Assembly: GCA_900155415.1 (NCBI GenBank)
Contig: LT700187.1
Span: 1,736,001 to 1,800,000, forward strand
Direction of reading: 5' to 3'
Source of the DNA: Christensenella massiliensis
GTDB lineage: Bacteria; Bacillota; Clostridia; Christensenellales; Christensenellaceae
DNA length: 64,000 nt
Part shown: one piece after another, positions 24,180 to 60,299 of the stretch
Layout of the letters: the number at the start of each line of letters is the position of its first letter
Position numbering within the stretch: position 1 is the stretch's first letter
The notes under the pieces: model-generated
Database searches by the model: none
Told to the model about the DNA's origin: nothing
What the model saw: only the letters and a program-made list of their open reading frames with translations
Made by a program: the position numbers and the translations under genes

Positions 24180-24564
24180 GGGGATGTACTGGTTTCGACG
24201 GGGGCATTTGTGAGGGTAATAAGCAAGCCGCAGTTGAGTACTCTGCGTTAAAAAGATTCATCTAAATATAAACGCAAAAACAAACAAAACGGCAGAAGTG
24301 GGTTCTCCCGCTCTGCTCGCTGCTTAATTTAAATTAGCAGCCTTCCGGCCTCTCTTTCCCTGTTTGGGAGAGGATCGGGAGTCAATTTAAAACAGGCTAC
24401 TACGCTGCCAAAGCTTTGCGGCAGCGCGGAGCTTATGAAGCTACCTCTTTTTGGTTTTTGTGGCCGGGGGCTTTAAAGAGGGAAATAAACAAAGGCCAAT
24501 AAGCTTGTAGAAAGTTGCCCGGGCAGGCTTTCGGACAGGGGTTCGACTCCCCTCATCTCCACCA
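24180..24564 (+). ncRNA. ssrA: Transfer-messenger RNA (tmRNA)
   Basis: A 385-nt tmRNA. Its 5' GGGGAUG pairs with CAUCUCC at the 3' end (one G-U) to form the acceptor stem; the T-arm aggggTTCGACtcccct precedes it and CCA is encoded at 24562-24564. The tag reading frame starts at the GCA resume codon (24274) and ends at TAA (24325-24327), encoding AKTNKTAEVGSPALLAA, with a stop-containing helix after it. The prophage is inserted in its 3' end and the attachment repeat restores the last 19 bases, so tmRNA should stay functional in the lysogen. Confidence 0.97.
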
Positions 24565-24565
24565 A
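24546..24565 (+). repeat. Left attachment site core (within ssrA)
   Basis: The 20-bp core is identical to 60280-60299. It spans the end of the tmRNA T-stem, the acceptor stem and CCA plus one base. Confidence 0.9.
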
Positions 24566-25808: not shown

Positions 25809-26261
25809 TTATAGTTTTGACTGGATTTTCAGTATATCCAGATTAGGCTTTAATTTTCCTGCCCGCACAAGCGATAAATAACGTTTTGCTTTTGTCATGA
25901 TGGCCTTAATGAGCGCTTTGTCCTTTACAATGTACGGTACGCCTTTTATGGTAAATGCAGACCTTATATATTCTATTTTTACCGGAATAATATTTCCGAT
26001 CAAAAATACACGCTCACGTCCTGCGATTTTTCCGATATGATAATATAGGCAATTACCATGTTTTCCTTTATCCTTTTCTATTTTTAATTTATATGATTCA
26101 ACTTGTGTACTTAACGGTATGAACCATATTATTCCGTCTGCACTGCGTATGGCGCAATAAAAAGGGCGCTTTTCGCTTTTGTTCTGAATAAGAAACTTAC
26201 TTGAAAATTTTTCAAAATAGGAATCTTTTAACTTATATAGGCCGCAATCGATTATATTCAA
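25809..26261 (-). CDS. Type III toxin-antitoxin toxin, CptN/ToxN-type endoribonuclease
   Basis: A 150-aa protein resembling CptN-family toxins, distant relatives of ToxN and AbiQ. Typical features are GLYKLKDSYFEKF at the start, NKSEKRPFYCAI, WFIPLSTQVESYK, then YYHIGKIAGRERVFLIGNIIPV and a C-terminal SLVRAGKL..LDILKIQ. These toxins cut RNA and are held inactive by their own repeat RNA. The TTG start at 26261 is chosen because GGAGGA lies five bases before it; the longer frame runs into the upstream terminator hairpin. The gene follows its RNA antitoxin and shares its promoter through a leaky terminator. It may act in phage exclusion or prophage maintenance. Confidence 0.75.
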   Translation of the reverse strand: MNIIDCGLYKLKDSYFEKFSSKFLIQNKSEKRPFYCAIRSADGIIWFIPLSTQVESYKLKIEKDKGKHGNCLYYHIGKIAGRERVFLIGNIIPVKIEYIRSAFTIKGVPYIVKDKALIKAIMTKAKRYLSLVRAGKLKPNLDILKIQSKL

Positions 26262-26280
26262 GGTTGTCCTCCGAATATAA

Positions 26281-26461
26281 ACACCCCTGCCAATGAGGAC
26301 AGGGGTGTAAAATTCTTTCAAGCCTACTATTTATATGTCGCCGTAGGCAAGCGGCAATCACAAGCAAGTTGCATATTTGTATGTCGCCTTGCAACAGGCG
26401 GCATTTAGGCGATGACACAGAACACGGGGTTCAAATTCATCGTACACAGTATTTCTACTGT
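26281..26461 (-). ncRNA. Type III antitoxin RNA repeats (CptI-like)
   Basis: Transcribed on the minus strand ahead of the toxin. Two units with a 46-nt period each show interlocked stems of an H-type pseudoknot. Unit A: gcctac/gtaggc (26322-26327, 26343-26348) interleaved with tgtcgc/gcggca (26336-26341, 26351-26356). Unit B: gttgca/tgcaac (26368-26373, 26390-26395) interleaved with tgtcgcc/ggcggca (26382-26388, 26397-26403). The first stem changes on both sides between units, which is compensatory. A 9-bp terminator hairpin (26281-26289 and 26300-26308) separates repeats from the toxin, as expected for this TA class. Confidence 0.75.
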
Positions 26462-26569: not shown

Positions 26570-26614
26570 GCCTGCTTTGCTCCTCTTGTGTTGGTAGCAC
26601 GGAGGGGCGTTTTA
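26570..26614. repeat. 45-bp repeat, copy 2, 3' of the second type III toxin
   Basis: It matches 25763-25807 with two differences. The TenpN-like stop codon lies in its last three bases. Confidence 0.85.
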
Positions 26615-27019
26615 AATATCAAAATATTGCAGAGCGCTATACTTTAGTATACTTTTACTTCTTGGATTATCTTTGTGCTTCAAAGCACGTTTATATTGCC
26701 GGACGTAAGATCGGAAAGCGTGGAATATAGCGTTTTCGTCTCGCTTTACCTTATTCCATTCCTGACTGTCTACCCACGGCATATTTGCTGATATATAAGA
26801 GCTATCTTTTATAACAACGGCTTTTGTGTAATCCAACCCGCATTTTCCGTAAGTAATATATGCGTAAGAGTGGCTAATATGATGCCGGAACGGTATGGCA
26901 TACAGTATATCGTCTATTTTTACCATCATGCAGACATACGGTCTGTTGGCTTTCTTTAATATTTCCGGGCAGCTTCCGTATTCAGTATAAAATTTTTCCG
27001 ATAACTGTATTAGCCTCAT
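26612..27019 (-). CDS. Type III toxin-antitoxin toxin, TenpN-type
   Basis: A 135-aa protein resembling TenpIN-family toxins: LSEKFYTEYGSCPEILKKANRPYVCMMVKIDDILYAIPFRHHISHSYAYIT, then CGLDYTKAVVI and the closing ALQYFDI. These are ToxN-fold endoribonucleases neutralised by repeat RNA. GGAGGG lies seven bases before the ATG at 27019 and just after the T-run of the antitoxin terminator. The sequence is unrelated in detail to the neighbouring CptN-like toxin, so the two modules are not simple duplicates although they share a 3' repeat. Confidence 0.75.
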   Translation of the reverse strand: MRLIQLSEKFYTEYGSCPEILKKANRPYVCMMVKIDDILYAIPFRHHISHSYAYITYGKCGLDYTKAVVIKDSSYISANMPWVDSQEWNKVKRDENAIFHAFRSYVRQYKRALKHKDNPRSKSILKYSALQYFDI

Positions 27020-27030
27020 TTACGCCCTCC

Positions 27031-27176
27031 AAAAAACAAAACCCTTACCTGTTACAGTAAGGGTTATCATCAATTGGGCTTTCTTTTGTTTAAGCTCCTT
27101 GCGCCCTACAAGGAGAATCATCAATTGAGCCGTCTTATTTTTACCCTTGCCCTGCTCTCAGGCAAGTATCATCTTA
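27031..27176 (-). ncRNA. Type III antitoxin RNA repeats (TenpI-like)
   Basis: Three units with a 51-nt period lie upstream of the toxin on the minus strand. Each has a hairpin of different sequence followed on the plus strand by the constant ATCATC(AATTG): aacccttac/gtaagggtt (27040-27048, 27057-27065) with the motif at 27066; ctccttg/caaggag (27095-27101, 27109-27115) with the motif at 27117; cttgcc/ggcaag (27146-27151, 27161-27166) with the motif at 27168. Paired stem changes show structure conservation. In RNA order the last hairpin is followed by ttgtttttt, making it the intrinsic terminator before the toxin. Confidence 0.75.
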
Positions 27177-27181
27177 CTGTA

Positions 27182-27209
27182 ATTATAACACGATATTCAG
27201 CTTTGTAAA
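27182..27209 (-). promoter_or_regulatory. Promoter of the TenpIN-like module
   Basis: On the minus strand TTTACA (27209-27204), a 16-bp spacer and TATAAT (27187-27182), with TG before the -10 (extended -10). Confidence 0.65.
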
Positions 27210-27214
27210 CAGTT

Positions 27215-27865
27215 TTATCTCACAATCCTTATTAGCCGCCTGACTTCACCGAGCACGCGACATTCATTCAAATCCCAATTTTCAATGCGTTTTGTTTGGT
27301 ATTCGGGATTACGTGGGATAAGCTCTACCCAATCTTCGCCTTTTTTGTAACGCACTTTTTTCAGCGTTGCGACCTCGCTATCATACAACATGACCGCGAC
27401 CGCGCCGCTGTCCACAGAGTTCTGGCGGTGTACAAGAACGTGATCGCCGTCCTGGAAGTCTGGGTACATAGAGTCGCCTTTCACGCGTAGAACAAAGAAG
27501 TTATCCGGATTGTGGCCCCGGAGCCATTCTATAGGTATCTGCTCATAATCTCCGGTTTCTTCTTCAACAGCCTCACTTCCGAATCCTGCGGCTACTTCGC
27601 CGATTACAGGATAGGAGCGGCAGGCACTTTGTTCTGCCAAAGCTTCTTTAATATATGGGTCATTACTCCATCCCATAAGGTATACAGGGGAGCAGTTCAG
27701 TATTTCAGCTATTGATACAACGGTTTCATACTTAATATTCTTAATGGCACCGCTTTCGTAACGTTGCACAGTAGCTTCCTTGACTCCAAGCAATTCAGCA
27801 AGTTGTAATAATGTGAGATTACGTTTTATGCGCATCTCTTTAATTCTTTCATTAAGTATAGCCAT
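27215..27865 (-). CDS. Phage repressor, XRE domain plus S24 LexA-like peptidase
   Basis: A 216-aa CI-type repressor. Residues 4-60 form the helix-turn-helix domain (LLQLAELLGVKEATVQRYESG); a linker holds the Ala93-Gly94 cleavage bond (GEVAAGFG); the S24 domain has Ser132 in VKGDSMYP and Lys169 or Lys170 in ATLKK. DNA damage would trigger RecA-assisted self-cleavage and induction. It is transcribed leftward from a promoter overlapping an operator at 27904 and faces the Cro-like gene. Confidence 0.94.
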   Translation of the reverse strand: MAILNERIKEMRIKRNLTLLQLAELLGVKEATVQRYESGAIKNIKYETVVSIAEILNCSPVYLMGWSNDPYIKEALAEQSACRSYPVIGEVAAGFGSEAVEEETGDYEQIPIEWLRGHNPDNFFVLRVKGDSMYPDFQDGDHVLVHRQNSVDSGAVAVMLYDSEVATLKKVRYKKGEDWVELIPRNPEYQTKRIENWDLNECRVLGEVRRLIRIVR

Positions 27866-27890
27866 GTATTTACCGCCTTTCGTTATTAGA

Positions 27891-27919
27891 AGTATAACAT
27901 TTACTTACGCATAACGCAA
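27891..27919 (-). promoter_or_regulatory. Leftward (repressor) promoter with operator
   Basis: On the minus strand TTGCGT (27919-27914), a 17-bp spacer and TATACT (27896-27891) with an upstream TG. The operator copy cttacgcataacg (27904-27916) lies between the -35 and -10, allowing autoregulation. Confidence 0.65.
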
Positions 27920-28005
27920 CATTTTTTTGGCAAAAAGTTAAAAAACTTACGCAATAAGTACTGACATACAAATCATACTATGCTATCATAAACTTACGTA
28001 ATACG
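27904..28005. promoter_or_regulatory. Operator array of the lysis-lysogeny switch
   Basis: Three copies of a 13-bp motif CTTACGyawtAmG occur at 27904-27916, 27946-27958 and 27993-28005. The middle copy is a dyad (acttacgcaataagt). A further CTTAC-N7-GTAAG dyad lies at 28252-28268 at the end of the Cro-like gene. The spacing relative to both promoters is like a lambda-type OR region. Confidence 0.65.
27961..27989 (+). promoter_or_regulatory. Rightward early promoter
   Basis: CTGACA (27961-27966), a 17-bp spacer and TATCAT (27984-27989). Operators lie just upstream (27946) and just downstream (27993). Confidence 0.65.
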
Positions 28006-28018
28006 AAAGGTGATGGAT

Positions 28019-28267
28019 ATGGCTATTAGAAATATTCGCTACAGGGTCAATACGATAGAATTGCAAAAATCAGCAATTGAATGTGGGATGGGTAAAATCA
28101 AAGACCTTTCTGAAGCATCTGGTGTTGATAGAAATACGCTGAGCAAGGTATTAAATGGTAAAATTACTCCATCAGCAAAAGTAATGTATGCATTAGTTGC
28201 TACATTACATCTATCTGAAGAACAAGCGGGAATAATTTTTTTTAGCAGAGACTTACGTATTGAGTAA
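28019..28267 (+). CDS. Cro-like XRE transcriptional regulator
   Basis: An 82-aa protein that is almost entirely one helix-turn-helix domain (MGKIKDLSEASGVDRNTLSKVLNGKITPS), so it should bind the same operators and favour lytic growth. The ATG at 28019 has CGAAAGG eight bases before it; in-frame GTG (28010) and ATG (28013) starts are too close to that site. First gene of the rightward operon. An operator-like dyad overlaps its stop codon. Confidence 0.85.
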   Translation: MAIRNIRYRVNTIELQKSAIECGMGKIKDLSEASGVDRNTLSKVLNGKITPSAKVMYALVATLHLSEEQAGIIFFSRDLRIE

Positions 28268-28282
28268 GAAAGGGGCAAGCAC

Positions 28283-28510
28283 ATGACAGATATACAAAAA
28301 TGGAAAGAAATTATTATGCCGCAAAGTGAAGAACGGGAAGCGGTAACCCAAAAGGAGCATGAATGCGTAATTGAAACAGCGAGGTTTGTTTCAAAGATGG
28401 GGGTAAGTGTGCGTTCGGCGGAGCGCATATTGAACGGAGCAATCGAAATCATACGCGCTACCGCCGACACGCAGAAGACATTAGAGGTTCTCGGAGATGC
28501 GGCCGATTAA
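28283..28510 (+). CDS. Small early phage protein of unknown function
   Basis: A 75-aa, mostly helical, acidic protein. The middle (MGVSVRSAERILNGAIEII) could form a helix-turn-helix-like pair, but no family is recognised. It follows the Cro-like gene by 15 bases with an AAGAAAGGGGC ribosome site, so it belongs to the early operon. Its last 30 bases overlap a minus-strand gene. Confidence 0.65.
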   Translation: MTDIQKWKEIIMPQSEEREAVTQKEHECVIETARFVSKMGVSVRSAERILNGAIEIIRATADTQKTLEVLGDAAD

Positions 28511-28657
28511 ATCCTTATAATCATTTAGAACATAGTCCGCCATATCATAAAGTCCCGGCTCATTGCCGGAGGAAGCTATTTTATCCTGAATCATGCTGTC
28601 CAAACGAGATTTCAGGATAATGACAGCAAGGTCATGGGCTACTTGTTCTTTATCCAC
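28481..28657 (-). CDS. Small antisense-oriented phage protein (hypothetical)
   Basis: A 58-aa reading frame on the strand opposite to the early operon, convergent with and overlapping the previous gene. The GTG at 28657 has a strong GGAGG eight bases before it, and residues are acidic and helical (EQVAHDLAVIILKSRLDSM). The ribosome site argues that it is real, although its orientation is unusual. No family is recognised and no promoter is clear. Confidence 0.45.
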   Translation of the reverse strand: MDKEQVAHDLAVIILKSRLDSMIQDKIASSGNEPGLYDMADYVLNDYKDLIGRISENL

Positions 28658-28666
28658 GCGAATCAC

Positions 28667-29131
28667 CTCCCTCCTACCCCAATATTACCATAGGGAGGTA
28701 TGGAGGACAAGAAAGGAGTATTGCAAGTTATGCCGTGAATTACAATGGGCGACTCATGCCCTACAACAATGAACCGCCCACGCCGAATTTATTTACCTCT
28801 TCGCCTTGCAAGCAGCATTAAACAGCTCTGCGGTAGTGTAGGCATCCGGCGCGCCGCACTTATGCGGTTACGATTCCGCTGAAAGGTTAAGCCCTTTTGT
28901 ACGCGGCGGTTGTGCAGGCTTGTCCGCGCGTTTCCTCCGCGCGGGTGGTACCAGCATCAACAAGGGGAACGGGGCAAGGACAAAAATTCTGGTGAGAAGC
29001 TGAAATTCAGCGTTATCAAGAGAATCGCCCCCTTTCTGTCTCCGTTATGGAGACACTTAAAGTATACGGCAATCACGGCATAACTGGCAATACTGGAGAT
29101 AAACGGCATTGGGTAAGAAAGGAACAAGACA
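28667..29131. other. Gene-free early region with inverted repeats
   Basis: These 465 bp carry no convincing gene of normal length. Short hairpins are visible: ccgca/tgcgg near 28855-28870, a ccgcgcg/cgcgcgg stem near 28925-28945, and gtctcc/ggagac near 29037-29054. Tiny frames exist after a GGAGG at about 28693 (12 codons) and after AAAGGAG at about 28712 (about 30 codons ending TSSPCKQH), neither with strong support. A leader, small RNA or peptide region is possible. Confidence 0.35.
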
Positions 29132-29422
29132 ATGAAAAAACGACAACCATTCAACGCAGAAACGGCACTTCGGATTTACTACGCTTATCCGAACGAAATA
29201 GGGAACGCGGAGCTGAAAGAGTTATTTCAAGTGGAATCAGGCTCTAAAATAGCATCTATCAAAAAAGAAGTCCGCAAGCTGATGGCAGAAAAGGAAATCA
29301 AGGTTTGGAATCCAAGGAACGTTGACACCAAAACGACGTATGAATATGCGGGAATCGACATTGCAACGGTCGAGAGGAGCTATTTGAAGATGAAGAAGCT
29401 GGGATTGGAGGCACAGGCATGA
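29132..29422 (+). CDS. Phage protein, possible winged-helix DNA-binding
   Basis: A 96-aa basic protein. The segment NAETALRIYYAYPNEIGNAELKELFQVESGSKIASIKKEVRKLMAEKEI reads like a winged-helix or HTH unit, and a C-terminal helix follows (VERSYLKMKKLGLEA). No named family is recognised. A GAAAGGAAC ribosome site precedes it, and its stop overlaps the small membrane-peptide gene by ATGA. Confidence 0.65.
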   Translation: MKKRQPFNAETALRIYYAYPNEIGNAELKELFQVESGSKIASIKKEVRKLMAEKEIKVWNPRNVDTKTTYEYAGIDIATVERSYLKMKKLGLEAQA

Positions 29423-60279: not shown

Positions 60280-60299
60280 ACTCCCCTCATCTCCACCAA
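60280..60299 (+). repeat. Right attachment site core
   Basis: Identical 20 bp to 24546-24565; marks the prophage right boundary. A terminator-like stem (cctgctcgg / ccgagcggg, 60326-60347, then TTTT) lies just beyond, likely the original tmRNA terminator. Confidence 0.9.

Follow-up and report, generated by a model that had tools for sequence, protein, structure and literature searches.

The window (the whole stretch of DNA analyzed here, 64 kb) carries a prophage at its tmRNA gene (24180-24564). The 3′ end of this gene occurs as an exact 20-bp direct repeat, at 24546-24565 and 60280-60299; these two copies are likely to be its attachment sites, attL and attR, which would give an element of about 35.7 kb inserted at ssrA, probably spanning about 24.5-60.3 kb. 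Toward the integrase side of the prophage lies a divergent cI/cro region, and the best explanation for it is that it is the immunity switch of this prophage, inserted where the tmRNA gene ends (3′). The two genes of the switch are the following.

27215-27865, minus strand: cI-like repressor, 216 aa (Pfam HTH_3 and Peptidase_S24; PHROG 4, transcriptional repressor)
28019-28267, plus strand: cro-like HTH protein, 82 aa (HTH_3/HTH_26), ending in IFFSRDLRIE and the stop codon

The repressor has an N-terminal HTH (EATVQRYESG) and a C-terminal Peptidase_S24 domain, and its relatives in the PDB are LexA-like. The cro-like protein is 47.9% identical, over 89% of its length, to a regulator of Roseburia phage Shimadzu, and homologs at about 39-54% identity are found in that phage, in a Streptococcus phage and in Staphylococcus and Mammaliicoccus phages, as well as in IMG/VR contigs and in genomes titled Lachnospiraceae, Clostridium, Eisenbergiella and Lacicoccus. 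As a single-protein query, Cro retrieved one relative in viral contigs, which is this same prophage, and no confirmed relative in genome contigs; out of six genomes of the genus, one was positive, its own. A search with CI in 18 genomes of the family returned its own copy and distant repressors, the HTH-bearing matches listed having at most 39% identity, and the loci of those distant repressors were kept out of the operator counts given below.

Just past cI, on the minus strand at 27040-27209, we observe a promoter match (TTTACA-16-TATAAT, 27209-27182) in line with a match to the Rfam 6A RNA at 27069-27119 (43.1 bits for a cut-off of 41.2) and a terminator-like hairpin at 27065-27040, which together are a possible prophage small RNA. 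On the same strand, the neighboring proteins at 25809-26321 and 26612-27019 match the phage families phrog_33519 and phrog_8049, of unknown function. Downstream of cro, the stretch GGGTGGTACC at 28940-28960 is reminiscent of a T-box core; an Rfam search of these positions gave no match at gathering score.

The promoters and operators of the switch, where the operator is a 17-bp dyad with half-site CTTACGYAW, are listed next. The sites OL, O2 and O1 are placed between the two divergent genes, and O4 is at the end of cro, with spacings of 42, 47, and 259 bp (OL-O2, O2-O1, and O1-O4).

27891-27896, minus strand: PL −10, TATACT
27904-27920: operator OL, CTTACGCATAACGCAAC, matrix score 10.8, in a similar position in relatives
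27914-27919, minus strand: PL −35, TTGCGT
27946-27962: operator O2, CTTACGCAATAAGTACT, extending into the PR −35, matrix score 11.4
27961-27966, plus strand: PR −35, CTGACA, from promoter prediction
27984-27989, plus strand: PR −10, TATCAT, preceded by TG, from promoter prediction with a 17-bp spacer
27993-28009: operator O1, CTTACGTAATACGAAAG, on the expected PR start, matrix score 24.5
28236-28243, plus strand: T8 tract, 8 nt ahead of O4, in codons ATT TTT TTT (I-F-F)
28252-28268: operator O4, CTTACGTATTGAGTAAG, which includes the cro stop TAA (28265-28267), matrix score 26.0, the best in the window

The two PL hexamers, separated by a 17-bp spacer, were read by eye and are absent from the promoter-prediction list. 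An earlier note on this DNA had described the region as a lambda-like switch with three operators and a fourth dyad in cro, based on a 13-bp motif. The divergent switch itself is borne out by the families of the S24 repressor and the small HTH protein, by the promoters, and by a layout that is conserved. As the note had it, the motif sits upstream of the PR −35 (27946-27958, next to CTGACA at 27961-27966) and downstream of the PR −10 (27993-28005, after TATCAT at 27984-27989), and a CTTAC-N7-GTAAG dyad lies on the stop of the Cro-like gene. The claim that the motif also occupies the spacer of the leftward promoter is mostly right for the 13-mer (27904-27916), which nevertheless overlaps the −35 by 3 bp, and the 17-bp site covers the −35. 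All the proposed operator sites are present, and they are better stated as two strong dyads, O1 and O4, and two weaker and mostly half-site operators, O2 and OL.

How rare is this motif? The loose 13-bp consensus, allowing up to 2 mismatches, has 13 matches in the window for a mean of 7.9 in shuffled sequences (7 out of 100 shuffles reach as many), and the gapped dyad has 21 matches for a mean of 15.1 (8 out of 100). In the whole genome (2.56 Mb), the consensus with at most one mismatch occurs 13 times, these sites accounting for six, and a reversed control pattern 27 times. Since these counts are not above chance, significance has to rest on clustering and on comparison. Of clustering there is plenty: four of the six occurrences of CTTACGYA in the 64 kb fall inside 365 bp, and the exact CTTAC-N7-GTAAG appears a single time in the window, at 28252. 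A motif scan, which the earlier note had suggested, was done with a scoring matrix built from the O1 and O4 sites of 20 other loci, the window left out; it ranks 28252 first (26.0), then 27993 (24.5), 27946 (11.4), and 27904 (10.8), and the next match in the 64 kb scores 7.6. The lone motif is not rare; the array is. In 398 genomes of the phylum, the O2/−35/O1 array was found in one, its own.

Within the open reading frame at 26612-27019 there are also two CTTACG half-sites 15 bp apart (26848-26869, minus strand). This pair, which is absent from the best 14 matrix matches listed for the window, is probably due to chance.

In order to compare related switches, we scanned viral contigs with two patterns that do not make use of O4 (O2, −35 and O1; and OL/O2/O1 at fixed spacing). 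Out of the resulting 31 loci, 21 were selected by the presence of a repressor hallmark or of a strong O1 dyad; one of them is this prophage, and some are near-identical. All 21 have exactly one further dyad with at least 10 of 12 arm letters located 20 to 400 bp downstream, and none of the other 10 pattern matches has a downstream dyad of that quality. The background in the flanks of the 21 loci is 2 such dyads in 174,792 positions, and the expectation by chance is about 0.003 per 300 bp. A third pattern added five more loci, four of them with a downstream site (L092, L093, L095, and L096; the site in L092 has 10 of 12 arm letters, at a locus without a recognized repressor hallmark); in the fifth, L094, the downstream site is weak (9 of 12, at +30). 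Altogether, of the 26 switches retrieved by patterns blind to O4, this prophage being one of them, 25 have a counterpart of it, a count in which many loci are near relatives of each other and so not independent. The earlier note had ventured that early transcription may be controlled a second time at the fourth dyad, and with this comparison, which extends to switches that have no cro, a second control point at O4 appears well supported.

The O2-O1 spacing of 47 bp, or else the −35 to O1 spacing, was built into the search patterns, and 47 bp counts as evidence only in the loci found by homology: Shimadzu, L004/L050, and L051. The O2-O1 spacing is 46 in the Streptococcus group, and L052 shows no clear O2. 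The Staphylococcus phages phiJB and IME1365_01, and the Mammaliicoccus phage phi6223, have closely similar operators plus a site at the cro end. At L043/L044 (Cro at 48%) the site near the cro end is weaker, with 5 and 5 of 6, and for L048, L049, L054, and L055 the operator search gave scattered weak matches only. L003 has, by eye, another switch.

The comparison also tells us in which way O4 is conserved. In most of the loci that have cro, the dyad contains the cro stop (FFxxxLRxx-stop), and in the main group it spans the stop codon and the next base. In L095, the operator is in another reading frame (FFAQKLTQNVS). In L099, the cro stop comes ahead of the operator (IFFKC-stop). In L107, all four operators have the same variant base (CTTACGAA). 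The pattern that retrieved L099 and L107 already contained the T-tract and the dyad; these two loci serve as examples and enter none of the counts. Moreover, seven loci (L059, L060, L061, L068, L069, L075, and L083, in contigs of 7.5-17.8 kb) are cro-less, having no open reading frame of at least 50 aa that starts within 120 bp of O1, and all seven keep O4 in a leader, 90 to 220 bp downstream of O1. In the leaders of L060, L083, and L069 there is an apparent in-frame relic of the cro tail right at O4, and these loci look as if all of cro except the element had been deleted. On this comparative evidence, O4 is conserved as DNA and is not a coding accident.

The genes that follow were scanned in two of the cro-less loci, 10 proteins of L059 with Pfam and 9 of L075 with PHROGs. 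In both, they are those of a contractile tail: sheath, tube, tape measure, and baseplate. Among the proteins scanned in these two loci there is one scaffold-like gene and no other head gene, and L059 also has an ImmA-like peptidase. The gene sets of L059 and L075 are tailocin-like. In the other five cro-less loci, the first gene is similar by eye.

A second feature goes together with O4. A T6-T8 tract (mostly T7-T8, T6 in one group) ends 8-9 nt upstream of O4 in 18 of the 21 loci; a run of at least 6 Ts precedes 18/21 O4 sites versus 0/62 of the OL, O2, and O1 sites. In cro, the tract is typically ATT TTT TTT. We took one representative from each of 12 Cro clusters, with 25 members in total, all from loci that had been fetched without using the tract. 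Their phenylalanine codons are TTT in 24 of 24 cases, when 13.2 would be expected from the codon usage of each locus (P=1.8e-7), and the codon before them ends in T in 10 of 12, when 4.1 would be expected (P=5e-4). In L045 the tract is T7 and the second codon TTG. These biases argue for conservation of the tract at the DNA level. Part of the tract can also be due to the protein sequence, an I-F-F motif being conserved in genes that are rich in AT. In the cro-less leaders, four of seven have T7-T8 before O4, the only T7 run within the 460 bp covered, and L059, L061, and L068 have T3-T4 only; since an apparent relic of the cro tail is kept in three of the four leaders that have the tract, the tract there could be an evolutionary leftover. 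The arrangement is not that of an intrinsic terminator, in which a G+C-rich hairpin is followed by a U-tract, as here the T-tract precedes the dyad; a terminator prediction over 27000-29400 reported none at 28230-28270.

With the sites, their layout, their conservation as DNA, and the tract all legible in the sequence, we can propose how the switch would operate. The S24-type CI would recognize the 17-bp dyad, and the Cro-like protein probably would too. As OL covers the PL −35, O2 abuts the PR −35, and O1 covers the PR start, occupancy of these sites would set which promoter fires, in the manner of other divergent switches of phages. O4 would be a downstream operator within the PR transcript, acting as a second lock: a polymerase that has escaped from PR would be halted by the repressor bound to O4, where cro ends, and would not get to the remaining early genes. 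We lean, with moderate conviction, toward O4-bound repressor blocking the elongating polymerase, a roadblock of the stoperator kind and perhaps a repressor-gated terminator. The last qualification comes from the tract. In a polymerase blocked at O4, the RNA:DNA hybrid at the active site or right behind it would be rich in U and weak, which should favor release of the RNA, so that tract and operator would together make a terminator gated by the repressor. The 8-9 nt that separate the tract from O4 fit the position of the RNA 3′ end of a stalled polymerase only approximately. The identity of the binder, the block to elongation, and the release of the transcript are what we infer from the arrangement.

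Downstream operators in the switches of Gram-positive phages are usually taken as helpers of promoter repression. The main rival of the roadblock is a DNA loop, the action attributed to lac O2 and one that could hold for the OD operator of TP901-1. Applied here, O4 would be an auxiliary operator for cooperative repression, and CI bound to it would loop to CI at O1, O2, or OL, tightening the repression of PR. We consider this account possible but less likely. It can claim the precedents of TP901-1, where CI is described as repressing mor through the three operators OR, OL, and OD (PMC7250872), and of phi13, where CI binds all three of OR, OL, and OD (PMC8516035). The TP901-1 OD is in the same place as O4, on the stop of mor. 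A loop anchor should be a good site, and O4 is as good a dyad as O1, with all 12 arm letters matched in 13 of 21 loci versus 9 of 21 for O1. LacI loops block polymerase well (PMC5477534), which makes looping and roadblock not exclusive. Yet across 30 loci the O1-O4 distance spans 90 to 280 bp, and no clear helical phase emerges (at 10.5 bp, Rayleigh p 0.20, and 0.59 on 21 distinct values); for the seven cro-less loci taken alone, 11.0 bp, out of five periods tried, did give a sign of phasing (p 0.025). O4 is kept beside repressors of 216, 115, 110, and 133-143 aa that differ in their C-terminal halves, and looping leaves the T-tract unexplained. No promoter motif is conserved around O4 in the contexts inspected by eye. 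Taken together, the variable distance, the diversity of C-terminal parts, the quality of the dyad, and the lack of a promoter motif accord better with a block to elongation than with a phased loop.

A variant of the roadblock has Cro rather than CI as the main ligand of O4, so that Cro would limit its own operon after induction. The position of O4 at the end of cro suits this idea, and so does the small HTH protein C.Kpn2I, which roadblocks its own gene (PMC6237814). But all seven cro-less loci keep O4 beside the repressor gene, and there the repressor alone must manage; we find Cro as the main ligand unlikely.

Could the element act in the RNA instead? The dyad would give a short CUUACG...CGUAAG hairpin in the transcript, which together with the U-tract might modulate the translation of the next gene or the stability of the RNA, and several loci have a start codon no more than about 30 nt beyond it. 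However, the arms match the DNA operators, the L107 variant included, the next main gene is some 70 to 285 nt further in the cro-less leaders, and the U-tract is 5′ of the hairpin where a terminator would have it 3′, all of which makes an RNA element very improbable. Finally, we give next to no credence to the dyad being a by-product of a conserved Cro C-terminus (the tail peptide is indeed conserved, L79 and R80 being unchanged among the four Cro proteins that were aligned). L095 has the dyad in another frame and L099 has it past the cro stop, it varies together with the other operators in L107, it persists where cro is gone, and in the main group it includes the stop codon and the base that follows.

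Returning to the repressor-bound roadblock, we asked whether T-tract and downstream operator also go together when the operators are of different families. In a targeted test on 14 switches, we looked for a T-run near the cro end followed by a 17-mer matching the intergenic region of the same switch. Eleven of the 14 have at least 6 Ts near the cro end (r1t, LLC-1, and MPV1 have no such run), and in eight of those 11 a copy of the own operator comes just after the tract with p≤0.05: the window, Shimadzu, TP901-1, TP-J34, EG-TP1, iLp84, LP-LmcIH1-8, and Listeria phage 184. Abouo (0.068) and phiJB (0.093) are borderline, and phiGBSVK fails (p 0.605; its neighbor gene is by eye unlike CI). For 20 random anchors within cro, no equal match was obtained in 10 of the 11 switches. 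These p-values are not blind, as several of the sequences had been viewed beforehand, and the intergenic boundaries of Listeria phage 184 were changed because its annotated genes overlap. Fourteen phages had been fetched, of which seven were tested: four with tract and self-operator (EG-TP1, iLp84, LP-LmcIH1-8, and Listeria phage 184), two tractless, and phiGBSVK. The remaining candidates, L116, L120, L121, L122, L124, L125, and L126, were dropped for having no repressor divergent from a Cro-type gene on the lytic side. A de novo search for the 17-mer over the whole of cro is insensitive: it gives the window p 0.19 even though its O4 is plain, it puts the best place for Shimadzu elsewhere (p 0.09), and it reaches p≤0.05 in 7 of 15 switches.

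Within this family of switches, the downstream site is almost always there and comes with a T-tract. It tolerates very different distances from the promoter, and it persists when the C-terminal part of the repressor differs and when cro is lost. All this points to control of elongation, an alternative to looping that can be tested directly. It is conceivable, though we hold it only tentatively, that a T-tract, a 7-11-nt spacer, and an operator make up a general and unrecognized repressor-gated terminator in the phage and tailocin-like switches of Gram-positive bacteria. If so, the bound repressor, sitting where the first lytic gene ends, would do the work that a hairpin does in an intrinsic terminator, the TP901-1 OD and the TP-J34 downstream site would be members, and the element would outlive cro. 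It would explain a double locking of gene clusters that are harmful if leaky, such as prophages and contractile tail-like clusters, and a conditional terminator taken from nature would be of use as a genetic part. Downstream operators are of a known kind; what would be new is that a T-tract accompanies operators of several unrelated sequences, and that the site persists where cro is gone. A literature search, of partial coverage (titles and the starts of abstracts, one of the searches being swamped by unrelated papers), found no T-tract before a downstream operator, and the persistence after loss of cro was likewise not described in the literature covered.

Compared with known systems, the likeness to lambda that the earlier note proposed holds for the topology: divergent repressor and Cro-type genes with the promoters between them, and similar operators overlapping both promoters. 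The lambda arrangement is one of adjacent operator triplets, whereas the operators here stand singly, at intervals of 42 and 47 bp, with a further one at +259. Among switches that have been worked out, the closest are Gram-positive ones such as that of TP901-1. In r1t, a 16/17 copy of an intergenic stretch is found at the end of tec, without a T-run of at least 6, and we take this copy to be the published O3. In TP-J34, a 16/17 copy of an intergenic stretch comes just after coh, with a T8 before it and after the coh stop. The operator sequences of TP-J34 and r1t are unrelated to those of the window.

Two systems resemble this one in the proposed action on elongation. C.Kpn2I binds within its own coding region and stalls polymerase (PMC6237814); it belongs to a restriction-modification system and not to a phage switch, and the accessible part of that paper mentions no T-tract. 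The cluster A mycobacteriophages also have repressor sites away from the promoter and in transcribed regions, the stoperators, which are said to halt transcription elongation (PMC9283540). O4 is similarly 259 bp downstream of O1 in the expected PR transcript. Cluster A has 26 asymmetric sites and a monomeric repressor with a Stoperator domain, unlike the one symmetric site just after cro and the S24-type repressor we have here; four sites are found in the window, the next match scoring 7.6.

TP901-1 is similar in having a divergent repressor and mor gene, with dyads at the promoters and a further one downstream. Its OD-type dyad is preceded by a T7 with an 8-nt gap, and O4 is, judged by its sequence, a candidate extra operator at the same place, the end of the first lytic gene. 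In phi13, tagged CI binds the downstream OD about as well as OL (Kd 15 and 22 nM, with 310 nM for OR), and untagged CI binds all three operators alike, at about 12 nM (PMC8516035). TP901-1 and phi13 are different in their half-site (AGTTCAYR, from the same source, versus CTTACGYAW), in their Mor protein, and in having three CI sites versus four; the CI of TP901-1 is without a protease domain (PMC11149083), and the repressor here is S24-type. Shimadzu has the same operator sequence, the T8, and O4 on the cro stop, with sites at 2361, 2403, 2450, and 2713, that is, spacings of 42, 47, and 263 versus 42, 47, and 259 here, and differs in its annotated repressor of 115 aa, which leaves no room for an S24 domain.
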